A stretch of 46,512 bases of DNA from a virus: positions 1-46,512 of IMG/VR virus record IMGVR_UViG_3300027917_000070; one strand, 5' to 3'. Numbering within the stretch: position 1 is the first letter of the stretch; each line of letters opens with the position of its first letter. This document shows positions 1-9,938 of the stretch, in pieces. A model generated the notes under the pieces. It did not search any database. It had not been told where the DNA came from and was given only the letters and a program-made list of their open reading frames with translations. The position numbers and the translations under genes were made by a program.

Positions 1-111
1 ACCAAAGTTAAGTTCATTCTTTAAAGTATCTAAACCTTCTCTTAATTGTCTTTGGTTTGATTCTTGATATTCAGGAGTTGGTTCAGGTATAATTGCTGTT
101 ATCTTTGCCAT
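1..111 (-). CDS. Unknown protein, 5' part only (cut by window edge)
   Basis: An ATG at 111-109 opens a frame that runs off the left edge; 37 codons are visible, beginning MAKITAIIPEPTPEYQE. Its ATG shares one base with the TAA of the preceding 645-residue structural gene (TAATG), so the two are translationally coupled. The visible part is polar, with a proline-rich start followed by a probable helix (QRQLREGLDTLKNEL). I do not recognise the family. Position suggests it belongs to the late virion operon. Confidence 0.6.
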   Translation of the reverse strand, partial: MAKITAIIPEPTPEYQESNQRQLREGLDTLKNELNFG

Positions 112-2048
112 TATCTTCTTCCTCCTGCAGCTATATCTAATCTTAAAGTTCCATATCTCCAAGACTCATCCACTGCATCATTCTCAATTTTTACACTAAC
201 TTGTCTTCCTCTAACTCTAGTACTTATATAATTAGTAGAACTATTAACAGTAAATGGACCAGTAATCAACGGACCATTAGGATCACTAGTTGCTGTTTCT
301 GCAGGATAGTTTCTAAAGAATAAAGTTACTTTTGCATTACCAGATAAGTTTTTAAAGTCTGGTATGAACCTAGATATTCTTAAAATATATTCTCCATCTC
401 CAGCAAAACCTTGTTCCGATATATCATAATCTCCGGATAGTATATAAGAGCTGATAGCTGTAGCTACACCTTGGTAGTCTACTTCATTTACACCTGTTTC
501 ATGAGCCCAATATTTAGAAGACCCATTTTGATTGGTAACTCCATTGATAACTGGAAAAGTAGGTGTTCCAGTTCTGTTAAATTCTGTAGCATAAGGTAAG
601 GCATATGTGTGTGCATCATTATATGATGTTCTAGACAAAGTTCCAGTTGTCCAACTTTGTTCTAAAAAATTATATACTACATTTCTATTAATTTGTTGTG
701 AGTTTGCAGAAGCATAATACCAACCCACTTCATTATATAATGAGTTATGATAGCCATATGTTATTTGATTAGCATCAGCATTAATTCCAGGCGCTCCACC
801 TTGTGTAGTGAATACATAATCTTCAACTAATGAAGGTAGTTGTTTTACAGTACCATCATACATAAAAAATCCACCACCAAAACCCATCCAAAATACAGCA
901 CCTTGTGCATAGACTGCTGCATGTTGACCTAGACATCCACAATTAGAACCGACTTGTCTCAATGAGAATGTAAAAGGTGGTCCTACGAATTGAATTACAT
1001 AAGCAGCTTGATCCGTGAGTACTAGTACATAGTCTTTACCTTGAACCGCTGTTACAATTTCATTTCCTTGGTCCAAGAGGAATGTACCTGCAGTATTAGT
1101 TGCGGTAGGTGCCCAAGTGTCAATATCTTCTTGATTAGAGAATCTAATAAACATTTTATTTTGTGTAGCACCATCATTTAAATCTGTTTGTGTACCCATT
1201 AAAAATAAGTGTCTATCTCTATCGGATACTAGACTCATTAATGCTTTAGGTATTGGAGTATGGACAACGGCTCTAGTATTTAAAGCTCCAGACCCAGCAG
1301 TTGGATCCCAAGTATAAGTGTTTCCATTTCTAACTGTTGCAACAAGTAACTGTCCATAATTATCTAAGGACCATGAACCAGGATCTAATGTCACGTTAGT
1401 AGTTGATCTTGTTGTTCCCCATTCTTCTTCTCCCCATTTACCTGTTCCCCAACCATAAGCTGCGGTTTGAAACACGGGTCCAATGTCAATATAAGGATTA
1501 ACTGTTGCACTTCCCTGAGAAGACATTCCAGTTCCTGTTTCATTAGAAGGCATTGTGATTGTTAATGTTCCTGAAGTAGGAACTGATAAGACTTCAAAAA
1601 CATTGGTAGTAAAATCTGCTGTTGTGTATCCTGTTTCTCCACCTCCAGGTAAGGTTACAGAAGTAAAAATAAAATAATCACCTTGTAATAAACCATGAGC
1701 TGCTGCGTTAACTGTCACTGTCGCAGAACCTGTTGTTGAATTAAAAGTCGCTCCAGTAACGGCTGTTTTTAAAGGTGTGATGTCATAGAAATCACCTTCA
1801 TAATAAATAACCAATACTTTAGAAGTTCCTAAAGCACCATATTTTTTACCAGTTAAATCTGTCCAGGTGTGTTGAGCTCTTACAGGTCCTGCTAAATCAC
1901 CATTTGTAAGTTCTTCCCAACCGCCTATTTTTTCAGCTTGTCCGTATCTAAAACGTACATTATCACCATCTATCCATTGACCTTCGGCCCCGGTGGCAGT
2001 TTGTTGTTTATTAAAACCAGCTTTAAATTGTATTTTCTGTAAAGGCAT
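111..2048 (-). CDS. Tail nozzle / DNA-stabilisation-like structural protein
   Basis: A 645-residue protein with no signal peptide or membrane segment. It starts MPLQKIQFKAGFNKQQTA, followed by a glycine/tryptophan-rich stretch naming a 'WIDGDNVRFRYGQAEKIGGW' block (about residues 25-44) that is typical of large beta-rich tail proteins in uncultured marine phages. The remainder is rich in Thr, Gly, Asn and aromatic residues. By length, composition and place at the end of the late operon it most resembles the tail nozzle (tail tube B or P22 gp10-like stabilisation) proteins of short-tailed phages, which close the portal channel after packaging. That role is inferred from family style, not from catalytic motifs. 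An AT-rich 67-base gap separates its start from the next upstream gene. Confidence 0.6.
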   Translation of the reverse strand: MPLQKIQFKAGFNKQQTATGAEGQWIDGDNVRFRYGQAEKIGGWEELTNGDLAGPVRAQHTWTDLTGKKYGALGTSKVLVIYYEGDFYDITPLKTAVTGATFNSTTGSATVTVNAAAHGLLQGDYFIFTSVTLPGGGETGYTTADFTTNVFEVLSVPTSGTLTITMPSNETGTGMSSQGSATVNPYIDIGPVFQTAAYGWGTGKWGEEEWGTTRSTTNVTLDPGSWSLDNYGQLLVATVRNGNTYTWDPTAGSGALNTRAVVHTPIPKALMSLVSDRDRHLFLMGTQTDLNDGATQNKMFIRFSNQEDIDTWAPTATNTAGTFLLDQGNEIVTAVQGKDYVLVLTDQAAYVIQFVGPPFTFSLRQVGSNCGCLGQHAAVYAQGAVFWMGFGGGFFMYDGTVKQLPSLVEDYVFTTQGGAPGINADANQITYGYHNSLYNEVGWYYASANSQQINRNVVYNFLEQSWTTGTLSRTSYNDAHTYALPYATEFNRTGTPTFPVINGVTNQNGSSKYWAHETGVNEVDYQGVATAISSYILSGDYDISEQGFAGDGEYILRISRFIPDFKNLSGNAKVTLFFRNYPAETATSDPNGPLITGPFTVNSSTNYISTRVRGRQVSVKIENDAVDESWRYGTLRLDIAAGGRR

Positions 2049-2115: not shown

Positions 2116-2448
2116 TTAAACGTCGTTTTTATTGAGTATAATATTCCAATCTAATTTATCCAATATTTCTTGTATATGTATTTTACTAATTCTATTGGCT
2201 TTTACATAAGTATGGAGTTCTTCAGCATCTACCACAATAATATGTTTATCGCTTTCAAATACAACTTTGTCAGCTTTTGACCTAGTAGTCATTTTTTTAG
2301 CAACAAGGTCTGATAGCCTTTGTAAAGGCCTTGTATCAAATTTGAATACTTGGTTTCTTCCTTTTAAGTTTCCTGATATATCCCAGAGTTCTTTTTCTCT
2401 CTGTTCTTGAGTTGGGTATTCTATGTTTTTAAGGTGTTTCTCAAGCAT
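2116..2448 (-). CDS. Conserved unknown, coupled to the oxygenase array
   Basis: A 110-residue, charged protein (MLEKHLKNIEYPTQEQ...). I chose the ATG at 2448-2446: a longer reading from 2469 would need a TTG start. The chosen ATG overlaps the stop of the upstream oxygenase gene by 8 bases (ATGCTTGA), so it is the last member of the coupled run. It has no metal-binding histidine pair of the oxygenase type and no membrane segment. Charged helical N-terminus, then a short possible beta segment (KHIIVVDAEELHTYV). Function unknown; it may be a partner of the array or the start of the structural block that follows. Confidence 0.6.
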   Translation of the reverse strand: MLEKHLKNIEYPTQEQREKELWDISGNLKGRNQVFKFDTRPLQRLSDLVAKKMTTRSKADKVVFESDKHIIVVDAEELHTYVKANRISKIHIQEILDKLDWNIILNKNDV

Positions 2449-3121
2449 CCATCCAAATATTACAAACAACTACAATCCTAAGTTTATTATATTTATGTTT
2501 TGATCTTGGTATTTCATGATGGAGATAGCCAGGGAATATAAAGCAATCATCTTCAAATGTAACTAATTCAAAAAACTCATGGTAGTTAGAATTTTCAGTA
2601 TGGGTATGGTCTAACTTATCATAATAGTTTTTTCTAACATCTTTATTATGTAAAGCTATATATTTACCTGGATTGGAAAAGACAGTAGCCGAATGAATAC
2701 CTTGTTCAAATTGAACATAATGACATAATGCAAAATCAGAACTAGGTATATGATTATGAGCTCTCATAAAATTATTACTCATAGATGCTGTATAATTAAC
2801 TATTTCAAATTTAAATGAAACCTCTTCATCTTTGTCTTTTAATTTTATATCTGTTAAAAATTTTTGTATGTAATCTGCATAAATAGGTCTTAGACTATCT
2901 AAATCTATTGAATTAAAATCAGTGTTTTCCTCATCATCATAATGCATATGTAAATAAGATGAAGCACTTAGATGACCGTCTAATTTATTTCTGTCTTCAG
3001 TGATTGCAAAATTACTTTCTATATCCTTAATAATTTTAGCTTTATTGTATAAATGTGGTTCTATCTTTGCTCTATATACTGGAGTTGCAAAAAGATGATG
3101 TTTCTTTATTTCATTTATCAT
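2441..3121 (-). CDS. 2OG-Fe(II) oxygenase-like protein, array member 1
   Basis: A 226-residue protein resembling the 2OG-FeII_Oxy_5 / TIGR02466 branch of the double-stranded beta-helix oxygenases. The probable metal site is H122-x-H124 (AHNHIPSSDF) with a distal histidine at 201 or 202 (FPGYLHHEIPRS), followed by R215 as the likely 2-oxoglutarate carboxylate contact (KLRIVVV). In this branch an HxH proximal motif takes the place of HxD. Such enzymes couple oxidative decarboxylation of 2-oxoglutarate to hydroxylation of a substrate in the cytoplasm; the substrate is unknown. The ATG overlaps the previous gene's TGA by 11 bases. Activity is plausible but unproven because the proximal motif is non-standard. 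Confidence 0.75.
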   Translation of the reverse strand: MINEIKKHHLFATPVYRAKIEPHLYNKAKIIKDIESNFAITEDRNKLDGHLSASSYLHMHYDDEENTDFNSIDLDSLRPIYADYIQKFLTDIKLKDKDEEVSFKFEIVNYTASMSNNFMRAHNHIPSSDFALCHYVQFEQGIHSATVFSNPGKYIALHNKDVRKNYYDKLDHTHTENSNYHEFFELVTFEDDCFIFPGYLHHEIPRSKHKYNKLRIVVVCNIWMDA

Positions 3122-3680
3122 AGTGTACCCATCCTGTTATTATATATTTTGTTTCTTGAGTTAATTGACCTCTGTGTGTATGTGTGAATTCTGCTGGCCA
3201 AATTAGAGTATCTCCTTTAATACATTCGAAACCAATTTTTTGATATTTAAAATCTGTACCACTATTTTTAGCATCATTTAAATATGTCATAAATACCAAA
3301 GCTCTTCTCATACCAATATCATCGGGTGTATCTTTATCTAAATAAGTTCTTTCCATATGCCATTTTTTAAAACCACCATTCTTCTTATATTTTTGAATAT
3401 TAGCTCCTTCAGCTATTACTAATTTTGTGCTGGTTTTTAGTATGTCAAATTCATCAATATACTCATCGATATGTTTTCCTAAAACATCAAAGTATTCAGT
3501 TAGCTCTACTGGTTTTTCTTCTAAACATAAATCAATAGAATCTTTAACATCTTTATTTATAGCAACTCCACTGGGAGCACCACATCTACCTATAGTCCAT
3601 AAAGATCTATTTTCTTCAAAATAATTTAAAACTTGATCACAAATATGATGGGGTGTTTTATATTTTTTAATAAATAACAC
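3111..3680 (-). CDS. 2OG-Fe(II) oxygenase (prolyl-4-hydroxylase-like), array member 2
   Basis: A 189-residue protein. The core runs from about residue 85 to the end: proximal H108-x-E110 (KWHMERT), a strand with a conserved 'TYLND' and 'SGTDF', then 'KGDTLIWPAEFTHTHRG' with the distal histidine at 167 or 169, ending YIITGW. This order is typical of phage prolyl-hydroxylase-like proteins. The start is GTG at 3680-3678, sharing one base with the upstream TAG (TAGTG) and preceded by a strong GGGGAG Shine-Dalgarno about six bases away; no in-frame ATG is suitably placed. The HxE in place of HxD is tolerated in parts of the superfamily. Substrate unknown. Confidence 0.8.
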   Translation of the reverse strand: MLFIKKYKTPHHICDQVLNYFEENRSLWTIGRCGAPSGVAINKDVKDSIDLCLEEKPVELTEYFDVLGKHIDEYIDEFDILKTSTKLVIAEGANIQKYKKNGGFKKWHMERTYLDKDTPDDIGMRRALVFMTYLNDAKNSGTDFKYQKIGFECIKGDTLIWPAEFTHTHRGQLTQETKYIITGWVHYDK

Positions 3681-4327
3681 TAAACTCTCCCCATTTGACT
3701 TATTGGATACTTTATAGGCTGTTCGGAAGTTATCTCAGATAAGAATGTAATTAATGTAGTTCTTTCGTTTTTACCAAAATTAACTACACCGTGATAAGCA
3801 GAAGAATCAAAAAGTAATAGTCTATTATATACAGAATCTACCTCTATGGTTTTTTTAAACCTATCATTATTTTGTCTTAAGTATTTCTCTAAATCGTCAT
3901 CTTTTCCTTTTTGTTGGAAAACTTCTTTAAATTGTTTATGCTTCTTATCAACAAATAAGATTTCTCTATCATGATCTTTGGGAGTATATATAGCTGTCCC
4001 ACAACCGTGGTCTTTTGAAAGATAAATAATAGCGCTAATTTCTTGACTGTAATCTTGGTGAACCCAACCTTCATAAGGATAATCAGCTCCATTAATCTTT
4101 TGAAAAAACTGACTACCTGCCCAATTCATATATCTATAATTCATAGGATATACCGCTGCCATTATTTTTTTAGTAACAAATTGGAAAAAAACATTATCTA
4201 AGTTTTCACTTCTTGTGCCTGGATAACTTCCATCTTCTGGAGCTTTGTATTTTAATGTATTAGCATATTGCAATACAGATTCTGGGTCTTCAAAAAAATT
4301 ATCAATTACAAGAGTTGGGAATAACAT
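3680..4327 (-). CDS. DUF6445-type 2OG-Fe(II) oxygenase-like protein, array member 3
   Basis: A 215-residue protein whose layout matches the DUF6445 group. It has an N-terminal 'VIDNFFEDPESV' segment, then H90-Q-D92 (WVHQDYS) followed by the strand 'EISAIIYLS' and 'GCGTAIY', and a distal H179 (SSAYHGVVNFG) with R189 ten residues on (ERTTLITFLS). These residues are placed as in 2OG-Fe(II) oxygenases. An insert of charged residues (about 118-160) separates the two halves. Its ATG overlaps the upstream TAA (TAATG). It differs clearly in length and insert from its neighbours, so it is not a recent duplicate. Confidence 0.8.
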   Translation of the reverse strand: MLFPTLVIDNFFEDPESVLQYANTLKYKAPEDGSYPGTRSENLDNVFFQFVTKKIMAAVYPMNYRYMNWAGSQFFQKINGADYPYEGWVHQDYSQEISAIIYLSKDHGCGTAIYTPKDHDREILFVDKKHKQFKEVFQQKGKDDDLEKYLRQNNDRFKKTIEVDSVYNRLLLFDSSAYHGVVNFGKNERTTLITFLSEITSEQPIKYPISQMGRV

Positions 4328-4815
4328 TAAAAATAATTAATATTTATGTTTACTCTAGCCTTATCGTTTGTGCAGTTTGTACTATGGTGAGGCTTACTAG
4401 GATCAAAAAACAAAGCTCTATTCTCAATAGACTCTACTCTATTTCCATCTTCTAGTACTGTTGCACCATCGCATGTATTCATAGACAGTATCAATCCTTT
4501 ATGTTCCCAAGGTGCATCCACGTGATCTTCGTGTTCTAATAAAATAGAAGATGCTGGGTAACTATTGCATTTGACTCGTCCAATCATCTTCCAATCAAAA
4601 TGTCCTTTTAAAATATCCCAAATATCATTAAAAACTGCACTATTTTGAATACCATCATTCAATAATAAATGAGTGTAATAGCAATAGTTTTTATCAGAAA
4701 CATTGGGTGTCTCTAGATTTTGTTGGAGAAACCAAGGAAAGTTAGCACCATAGATAATATTTTTTAATTTAATAAAATCTTCTTTAGGTAAAAACTCATC
4801 TATAATTTGATGCAT
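4327..4815 (-). CDS. 2OG-Fe(II) oxygenase, array member 4 (short)
   Basis: A compact 162-residue protein. Proximal motif H98-V-D100 (HEDHVDAPW), then the strand 'GLILSMNTCDGATVLEDG', then 'ALFFDPSKPHHSTNC' with distal H143 or H144 and R154 (KARVNINI). The 'cDGaT...fdps..HhS' pattern is classical for small phage oxygenases of this superfamily. Only two bases separate its ATG from the stop of the upstream gene, and its TAA overlaps the next ATG. At 162 residues it is close to the minimum size for the fold, so it probably has little beyond the catalytic core. Confidence 0.82.
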   Translation of the reverse strand: MHQIIDEFLPKEDFIKLKNIIYGANFPWFLQQNLETPNVSDKNYCYYTHLLLNDGIQNSAVFNDIWDILKGHFDWKMIGRVKCNSYPASSILLEHEDHVDAPWEHKGLILSMNTCDGATVLEDGNRVESIENRALFFDPSKPHHSTNCTNDKARVNININYF

Positions 4816-4817
4816 GG

Positions 4818-5393
4818 TTATACTTTCTTGTTATAGTTATAAGCTAAAGTTATTCTTTTATCTTCTTGTAAATGCTGTTCTACACAATGTCTTAAATTAG
4901 AACTAAATATAACTAATCTTCCTTCTAAAGATTCATAAAAAAATCTAGGTGCAAAATTATCAAACTCAGTATTTAAAGTAAATACATCATTGGTAGGATT
5001 TTCAAATATTAATTTTGGACCCTCTGTATTTGTTTTTAAGAAATATACTGCTGATAAATCATGTCCTTTATGTTGATGAAATTCTTGATAATCATATTTT
5101 TCGTATATATTAAACCAACCCCCAGAACAGAATAAATCATTTTTAATTTTTAACTGTTCTTTAAATTCTTCTATTTTCTCATCTACCCATATGTTTAATA
5201 TGTCAAAGTCTTTATCTTGATAAACATCATGGCTATTAATAGATGTGTAAATACTTTGAGAAACCCAATCTTTTTCAGATTCTGTTTTTTCTTTTAAGTT
5301 TAAACAAATATTTTCTAATTTATTTTTTACTGTATCTTTATCTGGATTATCTACCCACCCTATAGGAATAGGTGCCCAATTGTCTATATTCAT
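4818..5393 (-). CDS. 2OG-Fe(II) oxygenase, TIGR02466-like, array member 5
   Basis: A 191-residue protein with the clearest TIGR02466 / 2OG-FeII_Oxy_5 layout: 'GGWFNIYEKYDYQEFHQHKG' giving H106-x-H108, then 'LSAVYFLK', 'PKLIFENP', and 'GRLVIFSSNLRHCVEQH' with distal H169 and R180 in 'KRITLAYNY'. It shares this layout with array member 1 but little other sequence. The ATG overlaps the upstream stop by four bases (ATGA). Expected to be a cytoplasmic dioxygenase; substrate not known for this family in phages. Confidence 0.82.
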   Translation of the reverse strand: MNIDNWAPIPIGWVDNPDKDTVKNKLENICLNLKEKTESEKDWVSQSIYTSINSHDVYQDKDFDILNIWVDEKIEEFKEQLKIKNDLFCSGGWFNIYEKYDYQEFHQHKGHDLSAVYFLKTNTEGPKLIFENPTNDVFTLNTEFDNFAPRFFYESLEGRLVIFSSNLRHCVEQHLQEDKRITLAYNYNKKV

Positions 5394-5965
5394 TCTTTTA
5401 TTTCCATCATTATGGTTAAATTAAACCTACCTATATATTTCTTAGGCCCAATGCCTTTATGTAATCTAGAACTATCAAAAACTAATGCTGTGGAAGGTCT
5501 ACTTAAATAAAGTTTGTCGGGTTCTCCTTCATTCATTTTAAGTTCTGTTCCACCATCACACATATTTAAACTATATACAGCAGTAACGTATTTTCCTTCT
5601 GGATCATTGCCATTATCAATATGCCATGTACCTTCAGAACCTTTATTATAGTAATTCCATAAATATCTAATAGGTCTGGTTATTTTATAACTTCTGCAAT
5701 GTTTCTGTATGCTGTCAAAGATTAAATTAGCATATGTATTAAGTTCAATCGGTAAATTTATATTTTGATAAAAATCAAAAGTTTTATAAGTAAACCCTAA
5801 ATCTTTTTCTTTATCTAAAACTTCTGTAAATTTTTCAGCAGATAATTTCGTACTGTCTGCCGCTATCTCCCATCTAGCTTGTTTAATAAGAATATCCATT
5901 ATTCTGAAATTTGTAGGCCTTGGTAATACTTCTAATAATACTTCTATTTGTGGGTTCATTTGCAT
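5390..5965 (-). CDS. 2OG-Fe(II) oxygenase, array member 6
   Basis: A 191-residue protein: H115-I-D117 (GTWHIDNGN), the strand 'YVTAVYSLNMCDGGTELKM', then 'STALVFDSSRLHKGIGP' with distal H169 and R180 (GRFNLTIMM). All expected ligands are present. The 'cDGGTe' segment is shared in style with member 4 but the surroundings differ. The start ATG at 5965 overlaps the upstream TGA by ten bases; a second ATG two codons in would also serve. Part of the coupled run. Confidence 0.82.
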   Translation of the reverse strand: MQMNPQIEVLLEVLPRPTNFRIMDILIKQARWEIAADSTKLSAEKFTEVLDKEKDLGFTYKTFDFYQNINLPIELNTYANLIFDSIQKHCRSYKITRPIRYLWNYYNKGSEGTWHIDNGNDPEGKYVTAVYSLNMCDGGTELKMNEGEPDKLYLSRPSTALVFDSSRLHKGIGPKKYIGRFNLTIMMEIKE

Positions 5966-6564
5966 ATATCCTTTGGTAAACCTAAATGTAATCTTCCATC
6001 GTTTAAGTTAGCTTCTCCAAATTCAGAGTTAACATCGTTGTAATGTAGGAAGACTTGTACACAACAATCTCCAGTGAACTCTTCTCTCCAATGTTCTAAA
6101 TCATGACCTCTGTATATTAAAATATCCCCTGGATTTAAAACAACTTCATATTCTTTTTGATCTTTACCTTTTATAAATATAGGCCATTTATCTCCACCTA
6201 AATTCATGGTGCATGATATTTCACAGCTTTCTCTATCTTTATGTCTTTTTAAGACATCTCCTTTTTTATAGATTCTAGCATACGAGTAGGTAGGAACTAA
6301 TTCTAAACCTACTAAATCTTGCAAACTAGGTTGTACTTTTTTTAAAAGTGTTTCCATAGCTATATCAGCATAATGAGAATAACTATCTGGTATCTGCATA
6401 TCATCATAAGTACCCCATAATAAGGTATGACTAGATATATAACCGGTAGACATCAATGTAGTATGTACTTCTTTTTTCAATAAGAAGTAGTTAGTAATAA
6501 ACTCAGCTAACTCGCTGCTTATTATCTTTTCTTCTACCTTAAAACTTTTTTCTAAAAAACTCAT
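5956..6564 (-). CDS. 2OG-Fe(II) oxygenase, array member 7
   Basis: A 202-residue protein with 'SYARIYKKGDVLKRHKDRE' giving H108-x-D110, 'ISCTMNLGGDKWPIFI', 'LNPGDILIYRGHDLEHWRE' giving distal H158, and 'GDCCVQVFLHYND'. This layout is common among oxygenases of marine T4-like and other marine phages. The usual arginine about ten residues after the distal histidine is not obvious; the segment carries 'CCVQVFLHY', as in that subgroup. Coupled to the methyltransferase gene upstream by an ATGA overlap. Confidence 0.82.
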   Translation of the reverse strand: MSFLEKSFKVEEKIISSELAEFITNYFLLKKEVHTTLMSTGYISSHTLLWGTYDDMQIPDSYSHYADIAMETLLKKVQPSLQDLVGLELVPTYSYARIYKKGDVLKRHKDRESCEISCTMNLGGDKWPIFIKGKDQKEYEVVLNPGDILIYRGHDLEHWREEFTGDCCVQVFLHYNDVNSEFGEANLNDGRLHLGLPKDICK

Positions 6565-7286
6565 TTCTTTATAAAACTCATTTGGTACTGTTCTTCATTA
6601 CGTAGCTTAAACTCAAAATGCCTATGTTTTTGAATTTGAATTAATGATTCAACTGCTTCTTTAGATACTATATTAAACCTTTTTTGTAAAGTATTTATGT
6701 CATCTTCCATACTCTTTATAGTTTGGCTGGTTATATTTTCTTTATACTCTAGTTCAAACCCATGGTTCTCCATTGATTTAATATATATGTGATCTGTTTG
6801 TTTTTTAAATAAGTCAGAAACAATAAATTTTCCTTTATCTCTTAGTATATCTTTTAAGTGGATATAAAAAGTATCTAGTTCTTTAAAAAAATGAAAAGAA
6901 CATAAACTTATAACAACATCCATGGTTTCTGTTTCTAGTAAAGTTGGTTTTAAAAAATCTTCATATATAAACCTACCTTTAAAATTATCCCTGGCATATT
7001 TAATAAACTCAGGTTCTATATCAATACCTAATATATCTAAATTAAACCTTTTATTAATATAATGGATCCCGGATCCTAAACCACATCCTATTTCTAATAT
7101 GTCTTTATTTTTTAAATCTTGGTTTTTTAATAAATATTCATAAGCATTTATTTGGTTTTTAAATGGGTGTTGGATAGTTTTATTATTAGAATAATACCCA
7201 TGGTTTTGTAAAGGAGTCCATGGTTCTTTTTTTACATATCTATAAAACCATTCTTTATCTGATAAGTTAACTCTAGGAGCCTTCAT
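6561..7286 (-). CDS. Class I SAM-dependent methyltransferase in the oxygenase array
   Basis: A 241-residue protein with a Rossmann-fold methyltransferase core: motif I 'ILEIGCGLGSG' (63-73), the acidic end of strand 2 in 'GIDIEPEFIKYARDNF' (87-102), 'FIYEDF' (106-111) and 'MDVVISLCSFHFF' (122-134). The C-terminal third is highly charged and may form the substrate-binding part. Closest in style to small-molecule or lipid/sugar methyltransferases of the UbiE/Methyltransf_11 type; nothing points to a DNA-specific enzyme (no NPPY or PC motif). It overlaps the upstream gene by 14 bases and sits inside the oxygenase run, so it probably acts on the same substrate or pathway. Confidence 0.8.
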   Translation of the reverse strand: MKAPRVNLSDKEWFYRYVKKEPWTPLQNHGYYSNNKTIQHPFKNQINAYEYLLKNQDLKNKDILEIGCGLGSGIHYINKRFNLDILGIDIEPEFIKYARDNFKGRFIYEDFLKPTLLETETMDVVISLCSFHFFKELDTFYIHLKDILRDKGKFIVSDLFKKQTDHIYIKSMENHGFELEYKENITSQTIKSMEDDINTLQKRFNIVSKEAVESLIQIQKHRHFEFKLRNEEQYQMSFIKK

Positions 7287-7980
7287 TATCCAACTTCTCT
7301 TTTAGTTGCCTGTGAAAAACTGTTTTAACCATATCTTCATAAGTAGGATCTATTTTAAAATATTCCTGTTTACTATAAACCTTAAAATCAACTTCCTCTT
7401 CTTTAACCAATAAGTAATGACAAATAGGTGTACCTCTCTTAAGAAGAAAAGTACCTTTTTGTTTAAATACTAATTGAGGATTTAATTGATGGTAAACAGA
7501 TGTTTTTAAAAAACCAGGAGGTGCTTCAAAAATCGGATTATATTCATAAGTACATGGTAATTGCATTAACATATAACCCTTTGAAGTTTTTGCTCTCCAA
7601 GGACATATTGCTTTTATAATCATCATGGTATTATCTTTTCCATATTGAGGTAATGAATCTCTCATTTGAGAAGAATGATGTGCTGTAAATGCAAAGCGTT
7701 CGTCTGGACTAGACCATTCATAATAATTTTCATCTATTTTTATTTTTAGATCACACCACAAAGTTAACGTGTATAGATTTTTAAAATAAGAAATAAAAGA
7801 AGGACATTGTTTTACTGTGCCAGAAGATGTGTCTGTATCTACATTGTCTGGATAAGGTTTAATACTTCTAAACCAATCTGGAATAGTTTTAACAGCTGGT
7901 TTTATTGGAGTGTATTTTTCAACATCACTAACAGTGGACCAAAAATGAAGTTTTGGTTTTTTTCTAAATAAATCTATCAC
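7273..7980 (-). CDS. DUF6065-like protein in the oxygenase array
   Basis: A 235-residue protein of unknown function. Visible blocks: 'TIPDWFRSIKPYPDN' (33-47), 'TVKQCPSFISYFKNLYTL' (55-72), 'ICPWRAKTSKGYMLMQLPC' (125-143), 'APPGFLKTSVYHQLNPQL' and 'FLLKRGTPICHYLLV'. The combination of a 'PW.i.T..GY' block and 'kGTPI.H' resembles DUF6065 proteins, often found near oxygenase genes in phages and bacteria. No membrane segment or catalytic triad can be named. Overlaps the array member 8 gene by 17 bases and the methyltransferase gene by 14, so it is firmly part of the unit. Confidence 0.6.
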   Translation of the reverse strand: MIDLFRKKPKLHFWSTVSDVEKYTPIKPAVKTIPDWFRSIKPYPDNVDTDTSSGTVKQCPSFISYFKNLYTLTLWCDLKIKIDENYYEWSSPDERFAFTAHHSSQMRDSLPQYGKDNTMMIIKAICPWRAKTSKGYMLMQLPCTYEYNPIFEAPPGFLKTSVYHQLNPQLVFKQKGTFLLKRGTPICHYLLVKEEEVDFKVYSKQEYFKIDPTYEDMVKTVFHRQLKEKLDNEGS

Positions 7981-8587
7981 CGAGACTCCAATTAACTAAA
8001 CTATATCTTGTTCCTTTAGTTACTTTTGTCACCCTATGCCAAACGAAAGAAGGAAATACAATAATAGATCCTTTTGATCTAGCTTTATCTACTGTAATAA
8101 TTCTATCTTCTTCCTTTACTAAATTTGTATTGTAGTTTCTAAAATCAAATTGAAAATCCCCTCCTTCAAAATCATTTCCATCGTTTAATAAAAGAGTCAT
8201 GGAAAGTTTTCTAAATTTACCATGAATATTAGGATCGTTTGTATTATCAATAGGATCTACATAAGAATCACAATGCCAATCATAAAATTGACTTTCTGTA
8301 TATTTTGTAAACTGACATGGTTCGTTCCAGTCCCATTGAAAATTCCAACCTGAGTTAGAATTAGCGCTGTGTATATATGGATTGATTTCATCATAAATCC
8401 ATTTCTCACTAAGCCAAGCTATGTTTGAATTTCTTTGTTTTTCAAAATCTGTTTTTTCAGCTTCTTTTGGATCATGTCCTGTAACAGCTTTAAGTAAGGT
8501 AGTCTCTTCTCCAATTTTAATAATATCATCACACATTTTTGGTGGTATGACATTTTCAAAAAACCAGTAGTACTCTTTTAAATTCAT
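7964..8587 (-). CDS. PKHD-type 2OG-Fe(II) hydroxylase, array member 8 (first gene of the run)
   Basis: A 207-residue protein that is the most typical member: a PKHD-hydroxylase (PiuC-like, P4Hc) fold with H105-C-D107 (YDWHCDSYVD), 'RKLSMTLLLND', 'DFEGGDFQF', 'KGSIIVFPSFVWHRVTKVTKGTRYSLVNW' split as distal H184 and R194. All iron and 2-oxoglutarate ligands are present. Family members hydroxylate prolyl residues or unknown peptides. It is the 5'-most gene of the run; a 47-base gap without a recognisable promoter separates it from the tail gene upstream, so it is probably expressed by read-through of the late operon. Confidence 0.88.
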   Translation of the reverse strand: MNLKEYYWFFENVIPPKMCDDIIKIGEETTLLKAVTGHDPKEAEKTDFEKQRNSNIAWLSEKWIYDEINPYIHSANSNSGWNFQWDWNEPCQFTKYTESQFYDWHCDSYVDPIDNTNDPNIHGKFRKLSMTLLLNDGNDFEGGDFQFDFRNYNTNLVKEEDRIITVDKARSKGSIIVFPSFVWHRVTKVTKGTRYSLVNWSLGDRFI

Positions 8588-8634: not shown

Positions 8635-9069
8635 TTACCAAGTGTATTCAGACCAAGTTTGAGATTGTTCATCCCACTTGTCCCAACGAACTAATTCTTC
8701 ATTCCAAACAGCAGCTACTCCAGTTCCTTCTGGTGGGAAACCTGTTGGTGGATCCCAATCTTTTTGAGTATCATTCCATACCCATGAGTTAAAAGGTTTT
8801 GGTAAAATGAAACCTTGTTGTGCAGGATCCCATGTACTACCAATAGTAGCATAGTTCCATCTAAAAGCTTCTCCTCCTAATTCGTGAATATTTCTATATG
8901 TATTATAAGAAGTTTGAACCCAGTTTGTGTTTTCTCCATTAATTTTTCTTAAAAATTCTATTCCTTTAGTTTCAGATTCTCCTCCTTGAGATTCACCTAT
9001 ATCTAAATTATTTACTACTTGAACTTCAGTAACAATATTATTTTCGTCTATTTTAGCAAAATGAGCCAT
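8635..9069 (-). CDS. Conserved marine-phage tail-associated protein
   Basis: A 144-residue protein beginning MAHFAKIDENNIVTEV, rich in Trp, Asn and Pro, with C-terminal blocks 'PKPFNSWVWNDTQKDWDPP' and 'WNEELVRWDKWDEQSQTW'. Proteins of this kind occur next to tail-fibre genes in many marine phages; the exact function is not known. Its ATG overlaps the TAA of the glycine-rich protein (TAATG), suggesting that the two are made in fixed ratio. No enzyme motif seen. Possibly a fibre chaperone or a short fibre component. Confidence 0.7.
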   Translation of the reverse strand: MAHFAKIDENNIVTEVQVVNNLDIGESQGGESETKGIEFLRKINGENTNWVQTSYNTYRNIHELGGEAFRWNYATIGSTWDPAQQGFILPKPFNSWVWNDTQKDWDPPTGFPPEGTGVAAVWNEELVRWDKWDEQSQTWSEYTW

Positions 9070-9938
9070 TATGCGTTATATCCTCCGCCACCAGTAAATC
9101 TAAGAATAGTATCTGATCCGCTAGTTGTGACTGATGGACTACCTGAATAAGATCCAGAATATCTATTTGTTGGTATTCTTAATACAACAACACCAGATCC
9201 ACCAGAACCACCGCTGATGTTTTCACCACCGCCGCCTCCGCCGCCGCCAGTATTAGCTGAACCAGGAGAGCCCGCTGCTCCACCGTTTCCACCACCACCA
9301 ATTCCACCAGGTGCTCCATTATTATTTCCAACAGCTCCACCACCACCTGCGTAGTATGTAGTACTTCCAGGAATACCAGTACCTGACCCTGCTCCACCAT
9401 TTGCAGTAGAGTTTCCAGGTGCATTTTCACCTTGAGCAGCAGCACCGCCACCGCCTCCACCTGATCTTACGCCAGAAAAAGGACCAGCCCATCCACCAGG
9501 ATTTCCTTGTCCGGGTGAACCAGATCCACCTGATCGTCTTGAGTTATGGTCTTGAACACCTCCAGCGCCACCGCCAGAGCCTCCAGGTAAACCTGCTTGA
9601 GAATTACCTTGTCCACCACCACCGCCTGATGTTGATATGTTTGAAAATGAAGATCCAGAACCAGTTCCTCTTTGACCAGCTCCTCCACCTATACTTAAAT
9701 TATATGAATTTCCTACTTCTACAGCAAAACCAGAAGGCCCTGGTGCTGGATAATTTGTTCTGTATCCACCAGCTCCTCCACCACCACCGCAGTTTTGGTT
9801 TCCTCCCGCGCCAGATCCGCCGCCACCGCCACCGGCTACGACTAAATATTGAATGTAGTAAGTTGGAGATAAACCTCCGCCACCTATTCCACCAAAGCCA
9901 CCTGAACTACCAGATCCTCTAGTACCAATTAAAGGCAT
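9069..9938 (-). CDS. Glycine-rich tail adhesin-like protein
   Basis: A 289-residue protein that is mostly glycine with serine, asparagine and alanine. After a short N-terminus comes 'YYIQYLVVAGGGGGGSG' (27-43), then long poly-glycine blocks broken by short loops, and the end block 'GGSGVVVLRIPTNRYSGS'. This order matches the glycine-rich domain seen in phage receptor-binding tips, where poly-glycine II helices pack into a sandwich (as known for the gp38 adhesin of phage S16). Poly-glycine adhesins bind host surface receptors. Many other-frame readings here arise only from the biased composition. It lies immediately before the oxygenase run. Confidence 0.72.
   Translation of the reverse strand: MPLIGTRGSGSSGGFGGIGGGGLSPTYYIQYLVVAGGGGGGSGAGGNQNCGGGGGAGGYRTNYPAPGPSGFAVEVGNSYNLSIGGGAGQRGTGSGSSFSNISTSGGGGGQGNSQAGLPGGSGGGAGGVQDHNSRRSGGSGSPGQGNPGGWAGPFSGVRSGGGGGGAAAQGENAPGNSTANGGAGSGTGIPGSTTYYAGGGGAVGNNNGAPGGIGGGGNGGAAGSPGSANTGGGGGGGGENISGGSGGSGVVVLRIPTNRYSGSYSGSPSVTTSGSDTILRFTGGGGYNA

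Follow-up and report, generated by a model that had tools for sequence, protein, structure and literature searches.

Why would a phage carry a whole run of different oxygenase genes beside the genes of its tail? The question is raised by IMG/VR virus record IMGVR_UViG_3300027917_000070, analysed here over its whole length of 46,512 bases (the window). Between 2441 and 8587 it carries ten tightly packed minus-strand genes. They lie between the gene of a virion structural protein (phrog_3287), with a small gene alongside, and a gene pair consisting of phrog_7759 and a glycine-rich putative tail adhesin (Table 1). Eight of the ten, named g1 to g7 and g10, are predicted members of the 2-oxoglutarate- and Fe(II)-dependent (2OG-Fe(II)) oxygenase superfamily. 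An earlier note made from the sequence alone had proposed this, and all eight open reading frames (ORFs) are present where it had placed them. Our computational analysis points to a tail-modification island. We give about an even chance to the reading that g10 and g7 hydroxylate prolines of the adhesin and that the remaining members probably act on different residues of the tail. A wider proposal, which we put forward tentatively and a shade short of an even chance, is that marine phages use exchangeable, combinatorial sets of 2OG oxygenases to hydroxylate their own glycine-rich adhesin, the proline sites of which co-evolve with the enzymes.

Proline enrichment in the glycine-rich domain

The product of 9069-9938 matched Gly_rich_2 (PF21722) with 43.0 bits against a curated cut-off of 24.3, and this match and its composition make it a putative tail adhesin. 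It contains 5.2% proline, and 8 of its 15 prolines are found in Pro-Gly. IMG/VR was scanned with g7, g10, g3 and the phrog_3287 protein, which gave about 245 loci (numbered with L below), and 79 usable loci came from a scan with phrog_7759. The glycine-rich domain held 7.0% proline in loci with at least two oxygenases (218 domains) and 2.5% in those with none (40 domains; p=2e-21), and the values were 6.8% and 2.2%, with and without oxygenases, after near-duplicates were removed (169 loci). Proline gave by far the strongest signal of the 20 residues, with a 2.7-fold change; cysteine, which makes up less than 1% of the residues, had a similar ratio with p=1e-5. The shift runs counter to base composition, the oxygenase-bearing phages having 35% GC versus 45%. 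Proline was not raised elsewhere: the deduplicated ratio was 0.84 for phrog_7759, 1.01 for phrog_3287, 0.91 for the N-terminal part of the same protein and 1.03 for other ORFs. The content also followed the presence of two of the genes, being 7.1% with g10 and g7, 5.5% with g10 but not both, and 2.4% without g10. The earlier note had named a peptide, a base or a surface sugar as the substrate; the peptide is favoured by this enrichment in the neighbouring tail protein, but the base and the sugar gained no positive evidence.

Alternatively, proline richness might come with the lineage or habitat of marine phages and coincide with the oxygenases by chance; we consider this rather unlikely. Most of the oxygenase-free loci do belong to other phage lineages. 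Phylogeny was controlled by phylogenetic generalised least squares (PGLS) on the phrog_7759 tree, and the effect was 2.6 percentage points with p=1e-9 at the fitted lambda of 0.77 and p=4e-8 with GC as a covariate. Under strict Brownian motion the g10 and g7 pair gave p=4e-4, and the predictor 'any 2OG' gave p=0.03, or p=0.08 with the GC covariate, a weak result that agrees with a lineage trait. On the other hand, AT-rich loci without oxygenases are likewise proline-poor (1.0-1.9% in L227, L306, L314, L294 and L321), phages of the same host differ, and the change is limited to the glycine-rich domain.

Fourteen isolate or reference regions had not been used to find the effect; the isolates are also in the phylogenetic regression, so the tests are not fully independent, and kinship among the four cyanophages in the set leaves few independent contrasts. 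The regions nevertheless divided in the same way: proline was 6.4-7.7% in S-SSM5, P-RSM4, S-CAM8 and MS29, and 0.8-3.6% in HTVC025P, Greip, CRP-143, CRP-207, Melnitz-3, phiPsal1, zth2-2, ct2KA10 and MW202674. A genome search of the low-proline isolates found no g10 or g7, except for a g10-like gene in Melnitz-3 about 30 kb away, again with no g7. Bellamy has 6.4-7.6% proline, and the stretch first fetched from it held no oxygenase. When its whole genome was searched, g10 and g7 turned up at 47.8-49.0 kb, immediately past its glycine-rich genes, which resolved the apparent exception; that Bellamy fitted after this blind check also speaks against a lineage trait. Among phages of one host, HTCC1062, proline was 4.5-11.4% in HTVC023P, HTVC033P and HTVC008M and 1.4-2.7% in HTVC025P and Greip.

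Re-identification of the 'ferrochelatase' gene

The family of g7, phrog_2954, is annotated as ferrochelatase in HTVC023P, HTVC033P, HTVC008M, S-SM1 and S-SSM5. At E<=1 the ferrochelatase profile PF00762 matched neither g7 nor those phage proteins annotated as 'ferrochelatases' that were tested. The AlphaFold2 model of g7, built with 45 aligned sequences, reached a pLDDT of 94.7, and a Foldseek search with it against the PDB placed the Pseudomonas putida prolyl 4-hydroxylase (P4H; E=4e-10) at the top, followed by PHD2 and numerous further 2OG oxygenases. The residues H108, D110 and H158 do not vary in the family alignment. A ferrochelatase identity was rejected on the lack of a PF00762 match and on this high-confidence model, which has a 2OG oxygenase fold and not that of a chelatase. 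The 'ferrochelatase' annotation (phrog_2954, T4-GC 615) is thus very probably wrong throughout marine phages, and the model suggests a family of prolyl-hydroxylase-fold oxygenases. The label underlies ecological arguments in PMC9599517 and PMC11561400, the latter of which names phrog2954. If the family is indeed, as is very probable, one of 2OG oxygenases, the proposed heme/iron link would need revisiting.

The g7 model shares its fold and the HxD..H iron motif with the P. putida P4H (4j25/4iw3) and PHD2, but the identity is about 12% and g7 is without the usual Arg/Lys 9-13 residues past the last His. The g10 protein matches phrog_61, PKHD models and PiuC structures. Both g7 and g10 therefore resemble P4H/PHD in fold and motif, according to the model for g7 and to profile matches for g10, and peptidyl-proline hydroxylation is their putative activity, to which the proline enrichment of the neighbouring protein points indirectly.

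An AlkB-like action on DNA or RNA, in repair or modification, is highly improbable in our opinion. It was suggested earlier for cyanophage Syn9, as quoted in PMC2984593, and g7 shows a weak match to the AlkB family (PF13532). However, AlkB is absent among the 50 fold matches listed for g7, the best of which are prolyl hydroxylases, the Pfam, PHROG and NCBIfam scans gave none of the eight a TET/JBP match or a strong match to an AlkB profile, and the genes sit among tail genes.

Families and motifs of the eight oxygenases

The families were assigned with Pfam, PHROG and NCBIfam profiles, the motif columns of family alignments and profile comparison. Profile searches and structure prediction had been proposed as a check on the eight genes; the profiles support every one of them, and the one direct model, that of g7, has the double-stranded beta-helix fold, which profile matches indicate for the other seven. 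Pfam cut-offs were passed by g2 and g10 (PF13640), g5 (PF13759) and g3 (DUF6445), and g1, g4, g6 and g7, which were under them, matched PHROG families (E values in Table 1).

The iron ligands in the family alignments are H122xH124..H202 in g1, H108xE110..H169 in g2, H90xD92..H179 in g3, H98xD100..H143 in g4, H106xH108..H169 in g5, H115xD117..H169 in g6, H108xD110..H158 in g7 and H105xD107..H184 in g10. The HxD/E..H triad is present in six of the eight, with HxD in five (g3, g4, g6, g7, g10) and HxE in g2, and g1 and g5 have HxH..H, just as had been read from the sequence. H90, D92, H179 and R189 are conserved in the g3 family, and H98, D100 and H143 are invariant in the g4 family. HxH is the rule in the g5 family (97-99% His in one alignment, invariant in a second), which has the solved relatives 3bvc and 2rg4. 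The g2 family mostly has HxD, whereas g2 itself has HxE. Every protein has the distal His, and the Arg that had been noticed about ten residues later was found at +10 or +11 in five and at +13 in g1. With the Lys at +9 in g2, seven of the eight have a candidate 2OG-anchoring Arg/Lys 9-13 residues past the last His, the exception being g7.

It had been proposed that the genes are distinct, having been gathered and not duplicated. Their pairwise identity of 16-30% bears out the distinctness and is too low for a tree to separate duplication from acquisition reliably, but they represent just five PHROG families, three of which have two members: phrog_61 (g2 and g10), phrog_81 (g1 and g5) and phrog_274 (g4 and g6). 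Direct profile links between g7 and g10 and between g4 and g10 were sought and were undetectable. One half of phrog_3531 matches g7 and the other half matches g10/g2, which suggests a natural fusion of the two domain types, and this in turn suggests that g10 and g7 act together. We also observed that S-SCSM1 ORF248 (L256:26909-28270), like phrog_3531, is a two-domain protein resembling a fusion of a g7-type and another oxygenase domain.

Other labels in the run look wrong or doubtful as well. The phrog_274 label would make g4 a DNA endonuclease V, which was rejected: the T4 DenV profile PF03013 matched neither g4 nor the annotated denV copies of S-SM1 (L259:13249-13737) and 023Pt_psg01 (L252:4698-5180), and g4 has the 2OG motif and an HHalign link to g6. 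Judged from these profiles, phrog_274 is an oxygenase family (g4, g6) mislabelled 'DNA endonuclease V'. The g3 protein matches phrog_1644 'minor coat protein' despite its DUF6445 match and full HxD..H..R, and the label looks doubtful. The candidate ninth oxygenase, g9, was rejected after structure modelling (confidence 68) and HHalign, as it has no iron motif and a weak dUTPase-like fold.

Recurrence and variation among relatives

Oxygenases were counted in the 36 loci that had been fetched with the phrog_3287 protein and span the whole island. They number 0-9 per island (median 4, mean 4.6), and g10 (32 islands), g7 (30) and g5 (30) are near-constant members. The sister contig L165 carries the identical ten genes in identical order, the aligned parts being about 57-72% identical, and a fragment, L164, is 100% identical to this phage. 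The set thus recurs; relatives with just one or two of the genes at this place would have refuted the earlier note, and this is not what was found. Arrays of the same families were found in T4-like S-RSM4 (nine), S-SM1 (nine), HTVC008M (five contiguous) and others. Eight such genes in a row had been called unusual. The number is indeed at the top of the range, but it is not a record, and the contiguity holds for seven immediate neighbours; the whole run is one of ten genes, in which the methyltransferase gene and g9 (6561-7980) separate g7 from g10.

The arrays adjoin phrog_7759/Gly_rich_2 genes in HTVC023P-type podoviruses, HTVC033P, and T4-like HTVC008M, S-RSM4 and S-SM1. Within 1.5 kb of phrog_7759, a glycine-rich gene was found in 71 of the 79 loci and a 2OG gene in 31, nearly always on the 3' side. 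The glycine-rich/phrog_7759 pair also occurs without oxygenases, and the oxygenases are therefore an addition in some phages.

A cargo hot spot would explain part of this picture. The site by the tail genes would then be one of tolerated insertion, and the oxygenases would act on host metabolism, for example through 2-oxoglutarate drawdown and altered nitrogen signalling, as proposed for cyanophages in PMC3037559, or in iron/O2 stress. The highly variable number and order of the genes, the adhesin pairs without oxygenases and the 2OG genes scattered over many places in S-SCSM1 (PMC9602691) are in agreement with it. We nevertheless regard it as unlikely, because it predicts neither a proline rise restricted to the neighbouring glycine-rich domain nor a position common to unrelated phage families, and consuming 2-oxoglutarate needs no eight diverse enzymes.

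The earlier note had also suggested a stepwise oxidation pathway of one substrate. This was not borne out, as close relatives differ in the order of the genes and in how many they have (0 to 9), and g10, g7 and g5 alone are near-constant; such a pattern fits a swappable set of separate modifiers. The same variability, too great for a single pathway, makes it improbable that the oxygenases act in several steps on the host surface or a small molecule (an outer-membrane protein, peptide or sugar), for example to block superinfection. The broad chemistry of the superfamily and the methyltransferase within the run would suit such a role, but the run is without biosynthetic genes (ligases, glycosyltransferases, transporters) and no positive link to a host substrate was found.

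The proposed tail-modification island

Under the tail-modification reading, the oxygenases would be produced together with the late tail genes, and the near-constant pair g10 and g7 would hydroxylate the neighbouring adhesin at prolines of its glycine-rich domain during late assembly, with Fe(II), 2-oxoglutarate and O2 drawn from the host. The variable g1-g6 and the methyltransferase would probably act on other residues, in the adhesin or in nearby tail proteins, and the result may be diversity of the host-contact surface. When the number of extra oxygenases was compared with other residues of the adhesin, it showed small effects alone (Q, R) and no clear second target. The computation establishes the gene content, the families, the g7 fold, the recurring position and the proline enrichment, from which we infer the enzyme activity, the pairing of enzymes with sites and the benefit, which may lie in stability, adsorption or receptor range. 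The oxygenase genes look transcribed with the tail genes. Neighbours in the run overlap by 1-17 bases or have a 2-base gap. Promoter and terminator scans gave sites no more numerous than in shuffles.

Several observations weigh against this interpretation. The link between oxygenases and proline is correlational, the strict Brownian tests are weak for some predictors, and every test rests on the tree of one gene. Individual loci also depart from the trend: the sister L165 has the same eight oxygenases and just 2.8% proline, L244 is without g10 yet has 7.7%, L268 and L271 with g10 alone have 2.3-2.6%, and L279 with no oxygenase has 5.1%. Pro-Gly is frequent in the adhesin domains but not above composition, and no collagen-type X-Pro-Gly motif was found in them. 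Moreover, 48 of the 79 phrog_7759 loci have no oxygenase within 1.5 kb, so many phages use glycine-rich adhesins without them, and the need for up to nine different oxygenases is left unexplained by the present findings.

Marine phages commonly carry 2OG-Fe(II) oxygenases as auxiliary genes, and these enzymes now have a concrete candidate substrate that is testable in cultured phages of one host. Should hydroxylation of the adhesins prove real, the tails of phages would offer a new example of an enzymatic protein modification that influences contact with the host. If the wider proposal holds, much of the abundant oxygenase genes ('auxiliary metabolic') and 'ferrochelatase' genes in ocean viruses would be tail-maturation machinery and not host metabolism.

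Comparison with known systems

Several 2OG genes per marine phage are already known (PMC9599517, PMC9602691), and the present array is a rich example of a reported thing. PMC9599517 described eight non-orthologous 2OG genes in HTVC023P-type phages as 'frequently nearby (although not adjacent)'. The phage group, the eight non-orthologous families near one another and the 'ferrochelatase' neighbour are the same here. However, that paper has the genes not adjacent and ferrochelatase as a separate iron partner, whereas in this phage seven oxygenases are immediate neighbours, the 'ferrochelatase' is itself a predicted oxygenase and a tail substrate is proposed. PMC9602691 reported 24 2OG genes in cyanophage S-SCSM1 and cites PMC3037559 for one to five in most T4-like cyanophages. 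These cyanophages have the same families, with tail-adjacent arrays in S-RSM4, S-SM1, S-SSM5 and P-RSM4, but the published explanations are metabolic or concern nitrogen signalling. Eriksson 1999, as cited in PMC9301287, proposed that the virus-encoded prolyl 4-hydroxylase of PBCV-1 hydroxylates viral proteins. That is a single enzyme of an algal virus, unlike the array beside a glycine-rich adhesin in tailed phages. In PMC9301287 the use that viruses make of prolyl 4-hydroxylase is described as cryptic, and tail-fibre collagen is mentioned.

Our literature search found no paper tying these oxygenases to the glycine-rich protein. Gp38 of phage S16 is a glycine-rich tail adhesin with a polyglycine domain. 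The adhesin here is similar in its glycine-rich composition of the tail-tip type, composition being the basis of the comparison, and differs in its PF21722 domain. We know of no oxygenases beside gp38. The re-identification of the 'ferrochelatase' as an oxygenase, the arrays beside the glycine-rich adhesin in podoviruses and T4-like phages, and the proline link look new.

The phage and its locus

Portal, terminase, DNA polymerase, helicase and primase genes were detected in the window. The portal is 69% identical to that of Pelagibacter phage HTVC027P and the phrog_3287 protein is 59% identical to that of HTVC023P. By homology of its portal and structural genes, the phage is an HTVC023P-type podovirus, relatives of which infect SAR11. 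A search of GenBank for a near-identical phage found none.

Table 1. Genes of the oxygenase run and its flanks in the window.
Feature	Position	Strand	Evidence
Virion structural protein (phrog_3287), one island boundary	111..2048	-	E=5e-78
Small conserved protein	2116..2469	-	46 homologues in fetched loci; no family match
g1, predicted 2OG-Fe(II) oxygenase-like, HxH..H, rare member	2441..3121	-	phrog_81 6e-19; TIGR02466 2e-4, below cut-off
g2, predicted 2OG-Fe(II) oxygenase, HxE..H, Lys +9	3111..3680	-	PF13640 above cut-off; phrog_61 1e-30
g3, predicted DUF6445-type 2OG-Fe(II) oxygenase, HxD..H..R	3680..4327	-	PF20043 1e-19, above Pfam cut-off
g4, predicted 2OG-Fe(II) oxygenase, HxD..H..R	4327..4815	-	phrog_274 1e-36; below Pfam cut-offs; HHalign 99.6% to g6 family
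g5, predicted TIGR02466 / 2OG-FeII_Oxy_5 oxygenase, HxH..H	4818..5393	-	PF13759 and TIGR02466 above cut-offs
g6, predicted 2OG-Fe(II) oxygenase, HxD..H..R	5390..5965	-	PF13640 1.4e-4, below cut-off; phrog_274 3e-13
g7, predicted prolyl-hydroxylase-fold 2OG-Fe(II) oxygenase, 'ferrochelatase' phrog_2954	5956..6564	-	phrog_2954 4e-50; below Pfam cut-offs; AlphaFold2 model
Class I SAM methyltransferase inside the run	6561..7286	-	Methyltransf_11 2e-13
g9 (phrog_7084), non-oxygenase	7273..7980	-	Weak dUTPase-like fold, model confidence 68
g10, predicted prolyl 4-hydroxylase / PKHD-like 2OG-Fe(II) oxygenase, HxD..H..R	7964..8587	-	PF13640 9e-14, above cut-off; phrog_61 4e-38; PKHD hydroxylases in PDB
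phrog_7759, partner of the glycine-rich protein; possible chaperone or tail subunit	8635..9069	-	Glycine-rich gene within 1.5 kb in 71/79 loci
Glycine-rich putative tail adhesin (Gly_rich_2, PF21722), proposed substrate	9069..9938	-	PF21722 7e-11

In L209, L215, L229-L231 and HTVC027P (L251), all or part of the oxygenase run is encoded on the other strand from the tail genes, which indicates that the island can be inverted or taken up in either orientation. The g9 gene, which may encode a dUTPase-like fold, recurs within the oxygenase runs of L165, L209 and L215, and the small protein of 2116-2469 accompanies the arrays in 46 loci, at varying positions. Relatives of g7 were also found on contigs of the Pelagibacteraceae single-cell genomes AG-404-L13 and AG-422-I02 (L339, L341), possibly from infecting phages. 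Five contigs of a Maricaulis metagenome-assembled genome (IN14) carry g7 relatives as well (L340, L344-L346, L350), which suggests misbinned phage contigs.

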